Assembly: GCA_028694925.1 (NCBI GenBank)
Contig: JAQVJW010000004.1
Span: 1-48,812 of the forward strand
Source of the DNA: Patescibacteria group bacterium
GTDB taxonomy: Bacteria > Patescibacteriota > CPR2 > UBA1875
Length of the DNA: 48,812 nt
Direction: 5' to 3'
Shown here: positions 1,912 to 48,812 of the stretch, piece after piece
Position numbering within the stretch: the stretch's first letter is position 1
Layout of the letters: the number at the start of each line of letters is the position of its first letter
The notes under the pieces: model-generated
What the model saw: only the letters and a program-made list of their open reading frames with translations
Told to the model about the DNA's origin: nothing
The model's database searches: none
Translations under genes and position numbers: made by a program

Positions 1912-3000
1912 ATGGATATCACAAAGAAACAACTTGAGGAAGAAGCGGTTGAAATAAAAAAGAGGGTAGCCGATGCCATAAAGAAGCTTGCCCTAACCGA
2001 TAAGGAGAGTGAGCTTGACCTTCTTGAGGAAGAGAGTCAGGGTCCTTCCTTTTGGGAGGATTCAGAGCTTGCGGCAAAGACAATGCAAAAGATTAACAAT
2101 ATCAAGGAAGTTGTTGTCCCTTGGCGGAAGATCGAAAAGGATACGGCTGATATCCTAGAAATACTAAATGAAGTAAAAGAAGAGGATAAGATTCTTAACG
2201 ACCTTAATGATAGTTTAGCTAGAATAAAAAAGGAACTTCAGGAGAGAGAGATCGATACCTATTTCTCTGGTAAGTATGATGATAATAATGCTATCCTCTC
2301 GATTTATGCTGGGGCTGGCGGGGTTGATGCTCAGGATTGGGCCGAGATGCTCCTTTCGATGTATCTTAAATATGCCGAAAAGAGAGGTCTTAAGGCAAAG
2401 ATAGTTGGACTCTCTTCCGGCCAAGAGGCAGGGATAAAAAGCGTTACGGTTGAAATAGAGGGGGTGAGGGCTTATGGACTCCTTAAGTCTGAGGGCGGAG
2501 TGCATCGATTGGTGCGAATCTCACCATACGATGCCGATAAAGCTAGACATACTTCATTTGCCTTAGTTGAAGTCATCCCAGAGATTGAGCCAAAAGACCT
2601 TACGATTGATGAAAAGGACTTAAAGATAGATACTTATCGCGCCTCTGGTCATGGTGGCCAAAGCGTTAATACAACTGACTCTGCCGTGAGGATAACACAT
2701 CTTCCAACTGGTATTACAGTCACCTGTCAAAATGAACGATCCCAGCTTCAAAACAAGGAGCAGGCTCTAAAGATATTAAAAGCCAGGATTGCGACCGAGA
2801 AGGGAGCCGAAAAAGAAAAGGAACTTAAGATTATAAAAGGTGAAAACCTTTCGGCCGAATGGGGCTCTCAGATCCGCTCCTATGTCCTTCATCCCTACAC
2901 GATGGTTAAGGACCACCGAACGGGGGAAGAGACAGCCAATACAGAAAAGGTGCTCCTAGGAGAAATTCAACCATTTATCGATGCTTATCTAAAGTCATAA
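1912..3000 (+). CDS. prfB: Peptide chain release factor 2
   Basis: GHGGQSVNTTDSAVRITHLPTGI motif; SPY anticodon-like tripeptide region; no internal UGA frameshift site. ORF track starts at 1906; start at 1912 preferred because the -10 TAGAAT (1900-1905) directly abuts 1906. Confidence 0.93.
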   Translation: MDITKKQLEEEAVEIKKRVADAIKKLALTDKESELDLLEEESQGPSFWEDSELAAKTMQKINNIKEVVVPWRKIEKDTADILEILNEVKEEDKILNDLNDSLARIKKELQEREIDTYFSGKYDDNNAILSIYAGAGGVDAQDWAEMLLSMYLKYAEKRGLKAKIVGLSSGQEAGIKSVTVEIEGVRAYGLLKSEGGVHRLVRISPYDADKARHTSFALVEVIPEIEPKDLTIDEKDLKIDTYRASGHGGQSVNTTDSAVRITHLPTGITVTCQNERSQLQNKEQALKILKARIATEKGAEKEKELKIIKGENLSAEWGSQIRSYVLHPYTMVKDHRTGEETANTEKVLLGEIQPFIDAYLKS

Positions 3001-3517
3001 GAGAACGGGGGCCCAACTTGGGCCCCCGTCAAAAAGGATGGTGTGACCGGTTCAGATGTTCCGTCTGGCGCCGAGGGTGTTGTCGCCGAACGCATAGCGG
3101 CAACTAGTGCTGAACGCACGCATCAGTCAAATACTCCCGTATTTAAACGACTGACACATCTGAATTGGAAGAGATTACTAGTGACTCGGCAATAAGCCAC
3201 TCTCTCCGGTGAACCACCCAAGTGGGTTCTTGAAGTGCAGTGTCTGCAAGGGAGTAGACGTTATTATCCCGGTAGATATCCCTTATCCCTATGGGTGCGA
3301 CTAGGTCGCAACAGCAGTGGTAGGACAAACTATCGTCCCCTGCACTTCACTTCATAAGCGCGTGGAAGCCGATGCTTCTGGCCAGGTGGCCTGCCTCAAG
3401 CGATATTCGCTTATCTCCCAAGGAGATGTCGCTCCAATCCCCGATGTTGGCTGGCCAATGTAGTGCGTTGCCGGTCGCACGCGCTGATGAACAAGGAGCG
3501 TCCCCAAGAGGGACTTA
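3000..3517 (-). ncRNA. Putative large structured RNA (~500 nt); strand tentative
   Basis: At least ten short perfect hairpins plus two long-range 9-10 bp helices; no convincing ORF; minus-strand promoter TTGACG-N17-TAATAT (3552-3524) puts the TSS 2-3 nt before a 5' hairpin. Confidence 0.5.
3005..3029. terminator. Strong bidirectional hairpin, possible terminator (no clear U tract)
   Basis: ACGGGGGCCCAA-c-TTGGGCCCCCGT, 12-bp perfect stem. Confidence 0.5.
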
Positions 3518-3523
3518 ATTTGA

Positions 3524-3552
3524 ATATTAGCGGGAAAATTATGTTTCGTCAA
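3524..3552 (-). promoter_or_regulatory. Promoter for leftward structured RNA
   Basis: Minus strand TTGACG, 17-nt spacer, TAATAT. Confidence 0.5.
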
Positions 3553-3609
3553 TATTGCTGTTTACTTTACGATGGTTTACAATATAATCTGTGAGGGGGA
3601 ATAAATAGA

Positions 3610-4302
3610 TTGATTCACTTTAAAGACGTAGTTAAAAAATATGGCAAGAAAAAGGGGGAACATCCAGCCGCCTTAAATGGGGTTAGTTTTGATATTAAGC
3701 CAAAGGAGTTTGTTAGCCTTGTAGGAGAATCAGGGGCCGGAAAGTCAACAGTTGTCAAACTGATAAACAAAGAGATAGAACCTTCAAGTGGGGAGATATC
3801 GGTTGGGAAGATAGATTACGCTAACTTTCCAAAACGTCAAATACCTTTTCTAAGAAGAAAGATTGGAATTGTCTATCAAGATTTTAAGCTTCTTCCGAAG
3901 AAGAATGTTTACGAGAATGTGGCCTATGCTCTTGAGGTAGCCGGAATCAGAAACAAGGATATTGCCGGTCGGGTTCCAAAGATTTTAAAGCTAGTAGGAC
4001 TTTCGGATAAGGCGAAATGTTATCCAAATGAGATCTCTGGTGGGGAAAAACAACGAGTTGCCATTGCGAGGGCCCTTGTGCATCAACCTCAAATCCTAAT
4101 AGCCGATGAACCGACTGGAAACCTAGATCCCAAGAATGCTTGGGAAATTATCGACCTACTTCTTAAGATTAATAGTTTTGGGACGACAGTCCTTCTTACC
4201 ACCCACAACAAAGATATTGTTGATAAGATAAAAAAACGGGTTATTACCCTAAAAAGAGGTAAGGTCGAGAGTGACCATAAAGTAGGGAGGTATATCCTAT
4301 GA
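3610..4302 (+). CDS. ftsE: Cell division ATP-binding protein FtsE
   Basis: GESGAGKST Walker A, SGGEKQRVAIARAL, DEPTGNLD; TTG start; upstream TATAAT; 4-nt overlap with ftsX. Confidence 0.9.
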   Translation: MIHFKDVVKKYGKKKGEHPAALNGVSFDIKPKEFVSLVGESGAGKSTVVKLINKEIEPSSGEISVGKIDYANFPKRQIPFLRRKIGIVYQDFKLLPKKNVYENVAYALEVAGIRNKDIAGRVPKILKLVGLSDKAKCYPNEISGGEKQRVAIARALVHQPQILIADEPTGNLDPKNAWEIIDLLLKINSFGTTVLLTTHNKDIVDKIKKRVITLKRGKVESDHKVGRYIL

Positions 4303-5243
4303 TTACTTTCTTACGTATTTTAAAGAATGGTTTTGTCAACTTTATCCGTAATGGCGTTCTTTCTTTTGCCTCGACAACCATTATGGTCCTAACCCTTCTT
4401 TCCCTTTCCGTCTTCTATATCACTAGTATGACGGTGAATCTGGGGATCGACTATATCCAAGAAAAAATCGATATCTCAGCCTTCTTTGATTATGAGGCCG
4501 ACGAGGCGTTAGTACTTGAGCTCCAAAGTGAGCTTGCAAACCTTCCGGAAGTAAGTTCGGTTAAATACGTCTCTCAAGATGAAGCCCTAGAACGATTTAA
4601 GGAGCAGAAGAAAGACCAGAAAGAGCTCATTGAATCAATCGAAAGCTTAGAGGAGAACCCTCTCCAGGCCTCAATAGAGGTTAAGATGGACGACCCAGAT
4701 CAAATTGAGAATGTGTCAAATACCCTAGAGAAAGAAGAATATGACACTATTATTGCTAAGAAGGAAAATGGTGATAAAAAGATTAGTTACAAGGAGAATA
4801 AGGCGGTGGTCGATAAGCTGCTTCACTATACTAGGATTATAAGGAATATTGGGATTGTGGCTATTACAGCCTTTGGGGTGATCTCCTTTATCATTATCTA
4901 TAACACTGTAAGGATTGCCATCTTCTCCCAAAAGAACGATATCGAGATTATGAAGCTAGTTGGGGCTACCAATTGGTATATCCGCGGTCCTTTTATCTTT
5001 GAGGGGATGCTTTACGGCATTATCGCAACTGCTATAACAATGATTGGCCTTGCCGCCATGCTATATTACTCGGCCCCATCTCTTAACTCAGCCTTTTCAG
5101 ATATCGGGGTAAATGTGACCTCACTTCTTTATGAAAACGCCTGGCTTTTCTTTGGGGCTCAGCTCCTCCTTGGAATATCGATCGGGGTCTTCTCTTCGTG
5201 GCTTGCCCTAAGGAAGTATCTTAAGATTCAATATACTGATTAA
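4299..5243 (+). CDS. ftsX: Cell division protein FtsX
   Basis: Four-TM FtsX architecture, overlaps ftsE (ATGA). Confidence 0.9.
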   Translation: MITFLRILKNGFVNFIRNGVLSFASTTIMVLTLLSLSVFYITSMTVNLGIDYIQEKIDISAFFDYEADEALVLELQSELANLPEVSSVKYVSQDEALERFKEQKKDQKELIESIESLEENPLQASIEVKMDDPDQIENVSNTLEKEEYDTIIAKKENGDKKISYKENKAVVDKLLHYTRIIRNIGIVAITAFGVISFIIIYNTVRIAIFSQKNDIEIMKLVGATNWYIRGPFIFEGMLYGIIATAITMIGLAAMLYYSAPSLNSAFSDIGVNVTSLLYENAWLFFGAQLLLGISIGVFSSWLALRKYLKIQYTD

Positions 5244-5306
5244 GGGAATCATCCACTGGTATTTCCTCTTGATATGTAGTTTAATAACAAGGTGCCTTAT
5301 AGGCAC

Positions 5307-5336
5307 TTGACAAACATGATACAAATAACGTATAAT
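5307..5336 (+). promoter_or_regulatory. Promoter of CHAP hydrolase gene
   Basis: TTGACA, 18-nt spacer, TATAAT; lies inside the reported ORF 5292, so the true start is downstream at 5355. Confidence 0.7.
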
Positions 5337-5354
5337 ACTAAACGTAAGGGGAGT

Positions 5355-6545
5355 ATGTTACACAAACTACAAACCATTAAAAACAAATACAAAAAAGGTA
5401 AATCAAAAAGTCTCAAAGCGCAGAAGGCATTTGCAATATTTGCGCTATTTTTATTGCCCTTTTTGTGGGTACCGGTTACAACTTTTTCAGCTAGTCTGGA
5501 TGAAGAAATCAGACAAAATGAAGAAGCCTTATCTGATACGAGAGTAGAAAAAAGAACCCTAAATGATCAGATAAAAGAGTTTGATTACCAAATAAATGAT
5601 ATCGAACAATCTATATATCAAACAAATCAGAAGATACAGAGCCTCAATGTTGAGATTAATGAAACCAAAAAGAAGATAGTGCAAAAAGAAAAGGAATTAG
5701 AACAACTAAAAGAACAGCTGGCCACCTTAATTCAAGTCATGTACGAAGAGGGTCAGATATCCTCAATAGAAATTATAGCTAAGTCGTCAACATTTAGTGA
5801 TTTTGTAAATAAGACAGAATACATTGAACAAATACAAGCAAAAGTTCAATTAGCAGCGGAAACTGTTGTTAAATTAAAAAATGAGCTTGAGTCAAAGAAA
5901 AAAGAACTCGAGGCAGATAAAAAAGAAGTGCAAAAGCTACAAAATGTTCAATTGACCCAACGAAACAATCTATCAGCTCAAAAAAGAGAAAAACAGAATC
6001 TTTTGGTAGAGACTAAGGGAGACGAGAAAACATATCAGAGCAGACTCGCAAAGTTGTATGCTGAGCGCGCCGCTTTAGCTAGTCGAGGGAATCAAACTAT
6101 TAATAGTGGAGGGTCTGGAGGATACCCTTATACCGGAAGTTGTGGAGGTGTAGACCCGTGGAGTTATTATAAATGTCAATGCACTTCATTTTCAGCATGG
6201 AAGTGGAATGCAGTTTACGGCAAGAGATGGATGAATATGAGGTACGATGGTTATGGCACTGGTAACGCTTGGAACTGGCCAACGCATGCTATTCCTCAAG
6301 GATATTCAGTATCTTATGCCCCCCGAGTTGGAGCGATAGCAGTTTGGCCACAAGGGGCTTTTACTAGCCCTCATTATTATGATATTTATGGTCACGTTGC
6401 CATCGTAACTGCAGTATCTGGTAACAAAATTAGCGTAGAAGAATATAATTATGTACCACTTAGCTATAGCAGAAGAGACAACGTCTCTATAAACGGCTAT
6501 AATTCATACACCGGTTTTTCATACAGAATTCAGTTTATTTATTGA
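5355..6545 (+). CDS. PcsB/CwlO-like secreted hydrolase: coiled coil + C-terminal CHAP domain
   Basis: Signal peptide, long coiled coil with VMYEEGQISSIEIIAKSSTFSDFVNKTEYIE, CHAP motifs CQCTSFSAWKWN and GHVAIV; start moved from 5292 to 5355. Confidence 0.85.
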   Translation: MLHKLQTIKNKYKKGKSKSLKAQKAFAIFALFLLPFLWVPVTTFSASLDEEIRQNEEALSDTRVEKRTLNDQIKEFDYQINDIEQSIYQTNQKIQSLNVEINETKKKIVQKEKELEQLKEQLATLIQVMYEEGQISSIEIIAKSSTFSDFVNKTEYIEQIQAKVQLAAETVVKLKNELESKKKELEADKKEVQKLQNVQLTQRNNLSAQKREKQNLLVETKGDEKTYQSRLAKLYAERAALASRGNQTINSGGSGGYPYTGSCGGVDPWSYYKCQCTSFSAWKWNAVYGKRWMNMRYDGYGTGNAWNWPTHAIPQGYSVSYAPRVGAIAVWPQGAFTSPHYYDIYGHVAIVTAVSGNKISVEEYNYVPLSYSRRDNVSINGYNSYTGFSYRIQFIY

Positions 6546-13938: not shown

Positions 13939-13992
13939 GAGACGTGCAAAATAAGCTCCAACCGATTATAATTGATCTGGAGGTTTTTTTCA

Positions 13993-15006
13993 ATGAACCG
14001 TGAGCCTAAGATAGAAGAGCTTGAAAAACTTATAGAGCATTTTAGAAAGACAGACCGTGAGCATGAGCTTTCGGAGATTTTAGAACGACACAAAATAATG
14101 GATAGGGACGAGGTGCTCGATGTTATCGATGATGATACTCATGAGTTTCACGAGGAAGCTATCGTTATAAACAAACTAGCCTGGCGAGAAGGGCTTGTAA
14201 GAAAGGTCGCAAAGCCTTTTAAGCGCTTTTCTTGGCTTTTTAGGAATAAGTGGTATGTTCGGTTTGGAATTTATTGGCTTTCCCTTTTTTTTGTGATGTT
14301 TTCACTCCTTAATGCCCCTATCTTCTATTCTCGTCTTAGTGTCTCCGAGGAGACTACTACAGAGACAAAAATGGTAACTACTCAGGAACTCGTAGGTGGT
14401 GCCACGGCTAAATCGGCCCCGCTAGCCACAGGTGAAGTAATTCCTAAGGGCAATTATCTTAAGGTAGGAAAGATCAAAGTTAATGCCCCTATTGTTTTTC
14501 CAAAGACAACCGATGAAGCGACAATCCAAAAATACCTTACCCAGGGAGTCGTCCACTATCACGGTACAGCCAATCCCGGTCAAGTCGGCAACACCTTCAT
14601 TACCGGCCATTCCTCAAACTTTTGGTGGATTAAGGGGAACTATAATTATGTTTTTGTGAACCTCGATAAACTCGTGAAGGGTGATCAAGCTATTATCTAC
14701 TACGGTGGTAACAAATATGTCTACGAGGTTACCGGGAAGGTGGTTGTGGCCCCAACAGATGTTTCTGTCCTTGGGGCAACTGATACTCCTACCTTAAGCC
14801 TGATGACCTGCACCCCACCGGGAACAAACTGGAAGAGACTAGTAGTCAAATTCAAACAGGTAGCCCCCAAATACGTAAAACCAAGGCTCGTTGAACGAAC
14901 TGAGATAGTCGAAAATACGGTAAAGCTTCCTTCGACTGATAAGAACTCTCTAGGGGCATGGCTCCTCACCGTTTGGGATGAAATCGTAGGCGTATTTAAA
15001 AGCTAA
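13993..15006 (+). CDS. Sortase
   Basis: TGHSSNFWW, LMTCTPPGTNWKRLVV catalytic region; long cytoplasmic N-terminus + TM. Confidence 0.88.
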   Translation: MNREPKIEELEKLIEHFRKTDREHELSEILERHKIMDRDEVLDVIDDDTHEFHEEAIVINKLAWREGLVRKVAKPFKRFSWLFRNKWYVRFGIYWLSLFFVMFSLLNAPIFYSRLSVSEETTTETKMVTTQELVGGATAKSAPLATGEVIPKGNYLKVGKIKVNAPIVFPKTTDEATIQKYLTQGVVHYHGTANPGQVGNTFITGHSSNFWWIKGNYNYVFVNLDKLVKGDQAIIYYGGNKYVYEVTGKVVVAPTDVSVLGATDTPTLSLMTCTPPGTNWKRLVVKFKQVAPKYVKPRLVERTEIVENTVKLPSTDKNSLGAWLLTVWDEIVGVFKS

Positions 15007-45018: not shown

Positions 45019-46242
45019 CTACTCGACGAAGTCGCTGACCAACTCTACGATCTCCTGGTTGGTCTTGCCTTCGGCGATAGCCTCGTCGAATCGCTCGACG
45101 AGGTTTTCGGCCCGAGACCTCTTCTCCTCGATTACGACCAGGAAGCGCTTGGCCTCGAAATAGGCTGCGCTGCACTGCTCGAAGGTGAGAGAGGCAACCT
45201 TCGGTCTCGCGGATGCCTTGACCGAAGTTTGTGACCCCGCAGGCTTCCGGCGGCGAGCCATCGCCTTCAGCTGGGCCGGCTCGAGATCGAGCTCCAGCTT
45301 GAGGTAGGCCACGAGTTTGTCATCTCCGAGAAGCTCCAGGTAATCTTCCTCGGAGACAAACATCCGGACACCCTTGGCCTTCTTCTCTTGGGTAGCCGGA
45401 AGTAGTCCATGCTTGATGAGGTTCTTGAGGCGATCGTAGTCGAAAGCCCCTTCTACCACGATCTGCCTCGTGGTCACGAACCCCTCGGGCGCGTTCGAAG
45501 AGATCGCGCAGTTGAGAAGCCACTCGGGCTTCTCGTTGATCCATCTCTGGACCTCGGAGTGGCGCACTTGGGGGGTCCGACCCAGTTTGGCAGTGACGAA
45601 CACCTTCTTCTTCGCCAGCGCACGAAGCTGGTTGTCCATCACGTCTAGCTTCGCTTCCTGAAGAAGCATAGTGGCTTCCTTGAGGCTGACGAGCTGGTCC
45701 TGGCGTACTGGGCCGGATTGGCCCGATGCAGGTGTACTCACCTTCAGCTCCTTTCCTGGAGTTGGGGTTGGCGGCTTGGTCTCCTTCTGAGAAGAGACAT
45801 CCGCTTCATCAACGTGACGGAGAGCTTTCAGCTCCTTTGAATCAATGGCCAGAACAGCAACCGAGCCTTGTTGCACGGTCGAGCAGTTGAGATCCCCAGC
45901 CGCCAGTTCTCCGAGCAACCGCGATAGCGATCCCGGGAAATCAGCAACCGCCCTCCGAACAGTCACGAGACCCTTCGGCAGCTTCCGTCGCTTGACCTCC
46001 TTGAGCCAAGATGATGGGTGACCGGCCTCCTTCATCAGCAATTCATGAGGCCAGATCTTGCCTGTACCGTGGCTATTGAGGCCACGAACACGGCCCCTGT
46101 CTACGATCCTTGCGAGCTGGTTCTTTGTAAGAACATAGCCGAGTGCTGTAAGCCACTCGGCCGCTTGGTCGGTGTTGCGGTCTTTCTCTTCGAGAATAGC
46201 CGCAACAACCTCCCTTCCCGAACATTCTACCGGTAACGGCAT
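45019..46242 (-). CDS. GC-rich solitary gene: protein with tandem MerR/excisionase-like HTH modules
   Basis: ATG at 46242 preceded by GGGAGGAG SD (preferred to TTG at 46278); recurring L..L...G.(L/V)...E...L modules. Confidence 0.7.
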   Translation of the reverse strand: MPLPVECSGREVVAAILEEKDRNTDQAAEWLTALGYVLTKNQLARIVDRGRVRGLNSHGTGKIWPHELLMKEAGHPSSWLKEVKRRKLPKGLVTVRRAVADFPGSLSRLLGELAAGDLNCSTVQQGSVAVLAIDSKELKALRHVDEADVSSQKETKPPTPTPGKELKVSTPASGQSGPVRQDQLVSLKEATMLLQEAKLDVMDNQLRALAKKKVFVTAKLGRTPQVRHSEVQRWINEKPEWLLNCAISSNAPEGFVTTRQIVVEGAFDYDRLKNLIKHGLLPATQEKKAKGVRMFVSEEDYLELLGDDKLVAYLKLELDLEPAQLKAMARRRKPAGSQTSVKASARPKVASLTFEQCSAAYFEAKRFLVVIEEKRSRAENLVERFDEAIAEGKTNQEIVELVSDFVE

Positions 46243-46317
46243 ACCAACTCCTCCCTCTCTGGACCCTACCAGGGTCAATTTGCGTTTGCTTGTGAGGTGC
46301 TCTTTGATAGCTTTGGC

Positions 46318-46346
46318 ATTATATAATAAAAAGGTAGTAATGTCAA
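46318..46346 (-). promoter_or_regulatory. Perfect consensus sigma70 promoter
   Basis: Minus strand TTGACA-N17-TATAAT. Confidence 0.9.
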
Positions 46347-46414
46347 TGTTTTTATCGTGATCGAGTTCAAGGAAAAATGATATATTTATGATATAATTCC
46401 CCTAAGGAGGAAAA

Positions 46415-47182
46415 ATGAAAAACAAACAAGGTTTATCTAATATCACTATTATCTTAATAATAGCCGGGGTTGTTGCCGCTCTTGGAGCTACAATGGTCGC
46501 CGGCTATTTTTTTTGGTATAAGCCAAACTATATCGATAGGACTGAGTTAGTAGAGAGTACCGAGCCAGAGCTTACTCTAGTCTCAGATAGCCCCCATATC
46601 AAAACCTTTAACAACAACTCATATTCCGGCAATCTGGGCTGGTGGGTTAGGGGCAATAATGAATGGGTGGAGTTTGCTTTTACGGATATCGATACCGTAG
46701 GGGTAGTAGGAGACGAACTAACTCTTAAAATGAATCTAGGAGTCACTAACAAACTTGATGGGGATGAGAATATGGATGGGCAGGTAGACCTGATGATAAA
46801 TCCATATAATCCTGAAAAGAGTCTAAACTATATGGATGTTCTCCTCAAAAACAAGAACAGAGAACAAACTATAACATCAATGCTCTCAGGAGGAACTTAT
46901 GAGACAACTTATGAAGCCCCTATCAGGAAAGACTTAATCATCAACGGCACCCTTATCGTTCGCCTCTACCGGCATGTTGATACTAATGGGGCTCCTGATG
47001 CCACTGGTAAGTCTGGGAAAATAGTCCTTAGGGAGTATGAGAATGGGACAAGTGAATATGTTATCCCAACTGGAGTTTATGAGGACGATGACTCCCATAC
47101 AGTTCACTTGAACGTACAAACAATAGAAGGGGATAAGACAAAGGCGGCACCTGGTGAGGCGGTGCTTTATGGGTATCGGTAG
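46415..47182 (+). CDS. Membrane-anchored extracytoplasmic protein, hypothetical
   Basis: N-terminal TM; TGATATAAT promoter and AAGGAGG SD. Confidence 0.65.
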   Translation: MKNKQGLSNITIILIIAGVVAALGATMVAGYFFWYKPNYIDRTELVESTEPELTLVSDSPHIKTFNNNSYSGNLGWWVRGNNEWVEFAFTDIDTVGVVGDELTLKMNLGVTNKLDGDENMDGQVDLMINPYNPEKSLNYMDVLLKNKNREQTITSMLSGGTYETTYEAPIRKDLIINGTLIVRLYRHVDTNGAPDATGKSGKIVLREYENGTSEYVIPTGVYEDDDSHTVHLNVQTIEGDKTKAAPGEAVLYGYR

Positions 47183-47239
47183 GAATAATGTTGGATTTAC
47201 ACATTAGGGTAGTGATATAATATATAAGAAGGAGAAATT

Positions 47240-47929
47240 ATGAAAAAGATATTATCAATTACAGGTCTGGCTGTCCTACTAGTAGCTTTTATGCCGTCCT
47301 TCACCGGAGCTCTATATGAGTTTGGTGAGGGTGAGGCGGTAGGAACAAGGGTGGAAGTAAGTAAAAATGGGACCGATTGGTACAACTTCTATGCCAATGA
47401 GAACCCAGGTGGTCAAACTTTGTATGTTAGCCCGGGTGACAATTTAACTTTTAAGGGTATTTCTTGGAATGCTGGTCTTTCTAACCTGGATGTTGAGTTT
47501 GAAGCAATCCTAACTGGAACAGATTACTTTGCAGATTTTGACGTGTTCGGTGATGGAGCAGATGACCTAGATGGTAACACCAATGATTATATCGCCGGTC
47601 TTGAGACAATTACCGATGCCGATAACGGGACCGCTAGCTTCCCTGTAACCCTAGCTTCTGGCTTGCCACTCGTCTCTGATGATGCTAGCCCTGAAGAAGG
47701 TTCAATCACTGTAACCTTGGCTGATGATATCCCAGACGGCACCGTTATAATGGGAATCTTCCAGGTAACAGCAGCTGAGGTACAACAGCAGATTATAAAC
47801 TTTGGAACCTTTGGTAAATACGGAAGAGTATTTGCCCAAGAGCCGGGTGAATCAACCGTAAGGATAGTGGTTCAGAATGCCACAGATGATGAAGAGACAG
47901 TTTTACCCAAAACTGGCGCCCATCGGTAA
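47240..47929 (+). CDS. Secreted protein ending in LPKTGAHR (sortase motif, no C-terminal anchor)
   Basis: Signal peptide; DDEETVLPKTGAHR-stop; TGATATAAT promoter and AGAAGGAG SD. Confidence 0.8.
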   Translation: MKKILSITGLAVLLVAFMPSFTGALYEFGEGEAVGTRVEVSKNGTDWYNFYANENPGGQTLYVSPGDNLTFKGISWNAGLSNLDVEFEAILTGTDYFADFDVFGDGADDLDGNTNDYIAGLETITDADNGTASFPVTLASGLPLVSDDASPEEGSITVTLADDIPDGTVIMGIFQVTAAEVQQQIINFGTFGKYGRVFAQEPGESTVRIVVQNATDDEETVLPKTGAHR

Positions 47930-48577
47930 ATGAAAAAAGTATTTAGACTATCACAAAAGAGCCCTCTTTTCTGGGCTCTTTTGCTTACCACTATAATCAT
48001 CCTCTCTTTAAGTACCGCTTTTTATCTAAATGAGAGGGATAAGACCAAAGAGAAGAGGGAAGAATACAGGAGACAAACAGAGATTGCCTCTGATGAAGGG
48101 CTAGGGGAGATAACTGAATTTTCGATTGAGATTCATAAGCTAGGTATAGAGGTACCGGTAATCCCTAATGTCGATGGGAAAGATGAAGGAATGTACAACA
48201 AGGCGCTCGAGGAAGGGGTGGCCCATTATTTAAATACGGCCCTTCCAGATTCTGGGAGTAATATAGTTATCTTTGGGCATTCGAGTACCATCCTTGGGAA
48301 AGGAGAGTATAGTGAGGTATTCGCAGGGCTTAATGACCTAAAGGTGGGGGATAGGATAACCTTAAGTCTTAATAATACAAGTTATCCATATAACGTAACG
48401 GAAAAGAAGATAGTAGCAGCAAATGATACCTCTGTACTTTCGGGCACCGAGGACGAGCAACTAACCCTCCTTACCTGTTGGCCGGTAGGGACTGATGCCA
48501 AGAGGCTAGTGGTTATAGCAAAGCCAAGCTATAACGGGTCTACAATATCTTTAATTCGTTTACCTTTTTCAACATAA
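47930..48577 (+). CDS. Sortase
   Basis: IFGHSS, LTLLTCWPVGTDAKRLVV; N-terminal TM; starts immediately after the upstream stop, in frame. Confidence 0.88.
   Translation: MKKVFRLSQKSPLFWALLLTTIIILSLSTAFYLNERDKTKEKREEYRRQTEIASDEGLGEITEFSIEIHKLGIEVPVIPNVDGKDEGMYNKALEEGVAHYLNTALPDSGSNIVIFGHSSTILGKGEYSEVFAGLNDLKVGDRITLSLNNTSYPYNVTEKKIVAANDTSVLSGTEDEQLTLLTCWPVGTDAKRLVVIAKPSYNGSTISLIRLPFST
47954..47983 (+). terminator. Terminator-like hairpin inside the sortase ORF
   Basis: CAAAAGAGCCC-tcttttct-GGGCTCTTTTG, perfect 11-bp stem. Confidence 0.55.
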
Positions 48578-48780
48578 TCAACAATCTTATCAAGAAAGTT
48601 CTCGTATTGTCCGATATATTCTCTCCGGGGTAGGAATTCAGTACACTTTCTGACTTCGTAGAACTTTTTACCTGAGATCTTCTGTCCGGTTGCCTTGCAA
48701 CTTCTAGTGCAATATATCTTACCGGTCTTTTCTCGGTAATTGACTGACTTTTCACAATTAGAGCATCTTATCTTTGCCAT
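48529..48780 (-). CDS. Small zinc-finger protein
   Basis: CSNCEKSVNYREKTGKIYCTRSCK; SD AGGAGGA upstream of ATG. Confidence 0.65.
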   Translation of the reverse strand: MAKIRCSNCEKSVNYREKTGKIYCTRSCKATGQKISGKKFYEVRKCTEFLPRREYIGQYENFLDKIVDYVEKGKRIKDIVDPL

Positions 48781-48812
48781 CTTTCCTCCTACTTCCTCGA
48801 GTCTTCGAGAGA

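Follow-up and report, generated by a model that had tools for sequence, protein, structure and literature searches.

A probable sortase substrate without a C-terminal membrane anchor in a Patescibacteria genome, and hairpins in the anchor codons of substrate-coupled sortase genes

The window analyzed here, a stretch of 48,812 nt, is contig C7 of G000, a Patescibacteria genome of 665 kb. On its forward strand an open reading frame (47240..47929) encodes a protein of 229 aa with a signal peptide, a beta-rich secreted domain and the C-terminus LPKTG-AHR, and it abuts the gene for a sortase of 215 aa (47930..48577, forward strand). An SD-like sequence (AGAAGGAGAAATTATG / AGAAGGAG) lies ahead of the substrate start. 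A possible sigma70-like promoter of the substrate-sortase unit, TTTACA-16-TAATAT, is located at 47196..47223 on the same strand and matches the consensus at 9 of 12 positions; this call is weak, since 8 sites were found and 5.3 are expected by chance.

Sortase substrates are conventionally defined in part by a membrane anchor at the C-terminus. The first-pass annotation of this DNA had described the substrate as ending in LPKTGAHR without a C-terminal hydrophobic segment, and this was confirmed by the sequence and by hydropathy. The C-terminus reads ...EETVLPKTGAHR, followed by the stop codon TAA (47927-47929). LPKTG represents residues 222-226 of 229, and the pentapeptide together with its three-residue tail AHR is encoded at 47903..47926 (forward strand; called from sequence, alignment and hydropathy). 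The signal peptide is the sole hydrophobic stretch of the protein. An anchor after LPKTG was sought in all three frames and none was found; hydrophobic segment and basic tail are both missing. Frames +1 and +2 past LPKTG reach stops within 5 to 9 codons, so that no single-base slip restores an anchor, and a frameshift into an alternative anchor was therefore ruled out.

Three more matches in G000 to PKTG with a nearby stop were rejected, two because their positions put them out of frame and the third (L249) because it lies out of frame inside a reading frame of 590 aa. A scan of G000 with TIGR01167 gave no match. The same model also misses the known anchors in G004:C15 and G007:C1, and is thus too insensitive to say that G000 is without other anchors. 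A Pfam search of the substrate returned no family above cut-off. Its structure model is a beta-sandwich of low confidence (mean pLDDT 54.6) that matches weakly (TM about 0.35) to cohesin-like, adhesin and BcpA pilin beta-sandwiches; because of the low confidence, structure was left out as evidence of function.

The downstream protein matches PF04203 (E=1.1e-25; 90.2 bits versus a gathering cut-off of 26.6) and comprises an N-terminal signal anchor and a catalytic domain with His117, Cys183 and Arg192, all three invariant in the alignments. The best NCBIfam models are those for classes D and C, with all scores below the class cut-offs (SrtD 86.6 versus 140; class D 81.7 versus 165; class C 72.2 versus 160). 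Most relatives with solved structures are sortases of the pilus type or of class C, and the named relatives of the genome, as judged by the sortase, include records labelled Berkelbacteria. Hydropathy gives a single TM at about residues 13-33. The flanking charges (+4 on the N-terminal side, +2 on the C-terminal side) predict an N-in signal anchor. As noted at first reading, the sortase ATG at 47930 is the next codon after the substrate TAA, in the same frame, and is not preceded by an SD (junction at 47927..47932, forward strand; the bases before the ATG read GGCGCCCATCGGTAA). This in-frame adjacency is weak evidence, since chance alone would place roughly one in three abutting pairs in the same frame; pairs with normal anchors (L141, L152) also abut in frame.

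Within the TM codons of the sortase gene we found a perfect 11-bp hairpin with a U-rich 3′ side, CAAAAGAGCCC-TCTTTTCT-GGGCTCTTTTG (47954..47983, forward strand). It begins 25 nt past the substrate stop, spans 25-54 nt and is followed by CTTACC; as the two genes abut, it is located inside the downstream coding sequence. In the whole window there are six perfect inverted repeats with a stem of 9 bp or more and a short loop, this hairpin included. Folding of the region is stronger than in dinucleotide shuffles (z=-3.25) and is equalled by just 1 of 200 synonymous-codon shuffles. A GC-rich stem and a U-rich tract after the stop of the upstream gene have the form of an intrinsic terminator. The U-tract is modest (TTTTGCTT) and partly paired, and a consensus terminator scanner did not list the hairpin because the stem runs into this tract. 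An Rfam search of 46300-48812 found no family. At the homologous G007 locus an unrelated sequence in the same place contains a hairpin, AACCAGAATTGC-GATT-GCAATTCTGGTT, followed by TTTATTTTATTTT.

Among 59 related genomes, homologues of the substrate were present only in G004 and G007, and the sortases adjoining them are 45-47% identical to the G000 sortase over the full alignment. A third homologous pair is L047 (G206). All three homologous substrates keep a full LPxTG-TM-basic tail, with the endings LPKTGVQGANMLDKIFPYAVLGGFLLFIGFQLARRKKQT, LPKTGNVGG...SRKRKQTK and LPVTGNDT...AAKRAQR, and each lies beside a close relative of the G000 sortase. In the alignment the LPKTG of the G000 protein falls exactly on the LPKTG of two homologues and on the LPVTG of the third, so it is not a chance occurrence, and only the part after the pentapeptide is missing. 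Since the three homologues retain the anchor, the short tail is derived: as judged from these alignments, the loss of the anchor in the G000 genome is real.

The anchorless arrangement recurs. An LPxTG-like motif near the C-terminus of the upstream ORF was seen for 28 of the 157 distinct sortase ORFs collected, and two of these 28 pairs are cleanly anchorless, the G000 pair and one in G158. In the latter (G158:C28, L159; reverse strand) the sortase is encoded at 2022-2702 and a substrate of 1173 aa, ending in LPRTGE, at 2702-6223. This pair is of a different family, and its substrate, which has weak GH20 and Ig-domain matches, is unrelated to that of G000. The substrate TAG overlaps the GTG start of the sortase, whose likely ribosome-binding site is AGGAGA, contributed by the sorting-motif codons for Thr-Gly-Glu. 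A frameshifted fusion was considered for this pair and rejected, as the sortase starts at a GTG of its own that AGGAGA precedes. Near its N-terminus the G158 substrate carries a long hydrophobic stretch, which may itself hold the protein at the membrane. The substrate upstream of another sortase (L052, G307:C3) ends in LPETGGNWYLGWVNSLF, a truncated-looking anchor. In a scan of the class to which G158 belongs, the loci read gave no further clean anchorless pair.

The short sorting signal of AbpA is said to be confined to oral streptococci. AbpA of Streptococcus parasanguinis ends in KAGKALPKTSAVK (LPKTS-AVK) and lacks the hydrophobic and charged parts; srtB is always located directly downstream of abpA, SrtB anchors AbpA while part of it is released, and deletion of just AVK abolishes amylase binding (PMC4974636). 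The G000 pair shares with AbpA-SrtB the motif LPKT[S/G] followed by three tail residues of which the last is basic (AVK or AHR), the missing hydrophobic segment, and the sortase gene directly downstream of the substrate gene. It differs in phylum, in the substrate fold (a helical coiled coil in AbpA, predicted with low confidence to be beta-rich in G000) and in the sortase, which in G000 scores nearest to the class D and C models. The likeness of AbpA and the G000 substrate is one of mode alone, and we do not claim homology. Compared with the canonical LPXTG signal (TIGR01167), the G000 substrate has the Sec signal peptide, the LPKTG, a cognate downstream sortase and anchored homologues in relatives, but the hydrophobic segment and the basic tail are missing. 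SrtA of S. aureus incorporates exogenous LPETG without hydrophobic and charged parts (PMC3929722). CD3392 of C. difficile is found in the supernatant when its sorting signal is removed, and in most tested systems such removal leads to release of the protein (PMC5569036). From the AbpA, SrtA and CD3392 precedents, partial anchoring together with partial release would be expected for the G000 substrate.

The best reading of the locus, and in our opinion a somewhat probable one, is a short-tail substrate of the AbpA type with a coupled sortase that is attenuated by the hairpin. One of the two options offered by the first-pass annotation was a substrate that lacks an anchor and is processed by the sortase coupled to it, and this option is the better supported one, now strengthened by the anchor loss, the second anchorless pair and the AbpA/SrtB precedent. 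Both genes would be transcribed together, and the substrate would leave the cytoplasm through Sec. Although not first held in the membrane, the substrate would then be attacked by the coupled membrane sortase at the Thr-Gly bond of its C-terminal pentapeptide, and part of the protein would be linked to the envelope and part released, as with AbpA-SrtB. Besides this anchoring by the G000 sortase we infer reinitiation and attenuation: as no ribosome-binding site precedes the sortase gene, ribosomes that have completed the substrate probably reinitiate at TAA-ATG to translate it, and the hairpin may be a leaky intrinsic terminator or a structure that stabilizes the substrate mRNA at its 3′ end. 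In either role it would raise the level of substrate mRNA above that of sortase mRNA, and the hairpin past the substrate stop thus probably keeps the sortase scarce.

The main rival to this reading is a plain loss, in which a deletion removed the TM, the protein is simply secreted with a vestigial LPKTG, and the sortase serves other substrates or drifts. The anchored homologues attest the loss, deletion of sorting signals leads to secretion in tested systems, and the pentapeptide could linger if the loss was recent. However, LPKTG, the His, Cys and Arg of the sortase active site and the adjacency of the genes are all intact despite the loss of the anchor, which argues for a short-tail substrate in use, and both a second independent anchorless case and a tested short-tail system exist. 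We regard simple secretion as rather unlikely.

To learn how far the hairpin extends beyond this locus, we analyzed 151 sortases. In each, the 70 codons preceding the catalytic domain were tested against 50 synonymous shuffles, and so was a segment of equal length from within the domain. The set was collected by similarity to the G000 sortase, and the hairpin had first been noticed in this window. A sortase was considered substrate-coupled (n=61) if it directly follows a gene with LPxTG or with a C-terminal TM-plus-basic tail. Twenty of the 61 coupled sortases beat all 50 shuffles, as did 3 of 61 of their catalytic-domain segments and 9 of the 90 other sortases (coupled versus other, Fisher p=7e-4; Mann-Whitney p=2e-6 for the folding z-scores). 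As a control we took 173 ordinary genes that abut an upstream neighbor at these loci, of which 9 beat the shuffles (Fisher p=2e-7); one sortase hit (L108) escaped the filter and is counted among them, which makes the control conservative. With one member per 55%-identity cluster the values were 6.4 versus 1.0 of 29. An earlier statistic, built on fewer loci and a stricter start-codon rule, had given a weaker contrast (4/41 versus 6/203), and the domain-anchored one replaced it. A significant hairpin was absent by the shuffle test from the homologous locus in G004 and from the anchorless locus in G158.

Could the hairpin be incidental to the choice of T-rich TM codons, or have a translational role? 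This would concern only the attenuation part of the preferred reading, and is compatible with the other alternatives. U-tracts easily arise in TM codons, and 41 of the 61 coupled sortases do not beat all shuffles. On the other hand, synonymous shuffles preserve protein and codons, and only 4 of 83 control genes with an N-terminal TM beat all shuffles. The position is also fixed relative to the end of the substrate gene: the best hairpin window starts 0-40 nt past the stop in 16 of the 20 hits, compared with 6 of 25 clear non-hits. In one sortase family from four species, 95% of the cells of 15 pairs are kept and four pairs show changes on both sides, and the covariation score was unmatched by 500 shuffles or slid structures; as this is a single family with few related rows, the covariation is supportive of the structure rather than final. 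We consider an incidental or a translational hairpin unlikely.

Internal intrinsic terminators set operon stoichiometry in known systems, for example in clostridial ABC importers, where the stem-loop sits after the gene of the abundant exported protein (PMC9045158). Like these, the G000 locus has a stem-loop after an exported-protein gene and before a membrane-protein gene, with a long stem and a modest U-tract paired with the 5′ side, but the G000 hairpin is inside the coding sequence of the next gene. In the open-access literature searched we found no report of terminators within sortase coding regions. In four loci from Lysobacterales and other Gammaproteobacteria (L107, L108, L109, L111), the TM codons of the sortase contain hairpins of the type GGCGGCGGTG...CACCGCCGCC with U-rich tracts behind them, and the sortases of these loci share the design. 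We tentatively propose, as a generalization that may well reach too far, that in Patescibacteria and apparently in some Gammaproteobacteria a leaky substrate terminator is placed in the sortase-anchor codons and results in much substrate and little sortase, and that some lineages also drop the substrate anchor, so that the short-tail LPxTG protein then depends on the coupled sortase alone.

An artefact of assembly or base calling in a metagenome-type contig, the true gene being anchored, is improbable. G000 is a single draft genome of 32 contigs, and the contig ends about 880 bases beyond the junction. However, in no frame does one base change restore an anchor, some 85 nt would need to have been lost precisely between two intact reading frames, and, the hairpin aside, there is no repeat at the junction. 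A regulated substrate-sortase fusion, the other option of the first-pass annotation, in which readthrough of the TAA would complete the sorting signal with the TM and basic residues that follow in the same frame, is highly improbable and was rejected: in related, normally anchored pairs of the same sortase clade (G004, two loci in G007, L047 and L048/G188) the frames differ, by 1 or 2, which the first-pass annotation had itself named as a refuting outcome, no recoding signal was noticed, and the flanking charges suit an N-in sortase anchor, so that by the positive-inside rule the TM of a fusion with an exported substrate part would insert from the outside inwards, with the catalytic domain remaining cytoplasmic.

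With two independent short-tail substrates in Patescibacteria, the anchor may be more widely dispensable when a dedicated sortase is made alongside, and annotation that demands a TM after LPXTG will miss such proteins. The hairpin rule offers a testable mechanism for operons with many substrate and few enzyme molecules in compact genomes without intergenic space. The hairpins would represent overlapping information, an RNA structure kept in membrane-anchor codons.

Directly upstream of the substrate gene, a protein of 255 aa with an N-terminal TM is encoded (46415..47182, forward strand). A Pfam search of this protein gave no family match; it could be a partner of the substrate-sortase pair. 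Further upstream, on the reverse strand, lies the gene for a 419-aa protein with a weak HTH_17 match (45019-46278), preceded by a sigma70 promoter with 12 of 12 consensus positions (46346-46318, reverse strand). This region has a GC content of 52-58%, compared with 42-46% around it, and by this measure looks foreign. The window also contains a second sortase gene (13972-15006, forward strand), which encodes 344 aa with a C-terminal extension. Long relatives of about 320-410 aa occur across the order, and it is therefore probably the housekeeping sortase. In a Gracilibacteria record (L083, 4515-5459) stop codons interrupt a sortase reading frame, which is what would be seen if UGA specifies an amino acid there.
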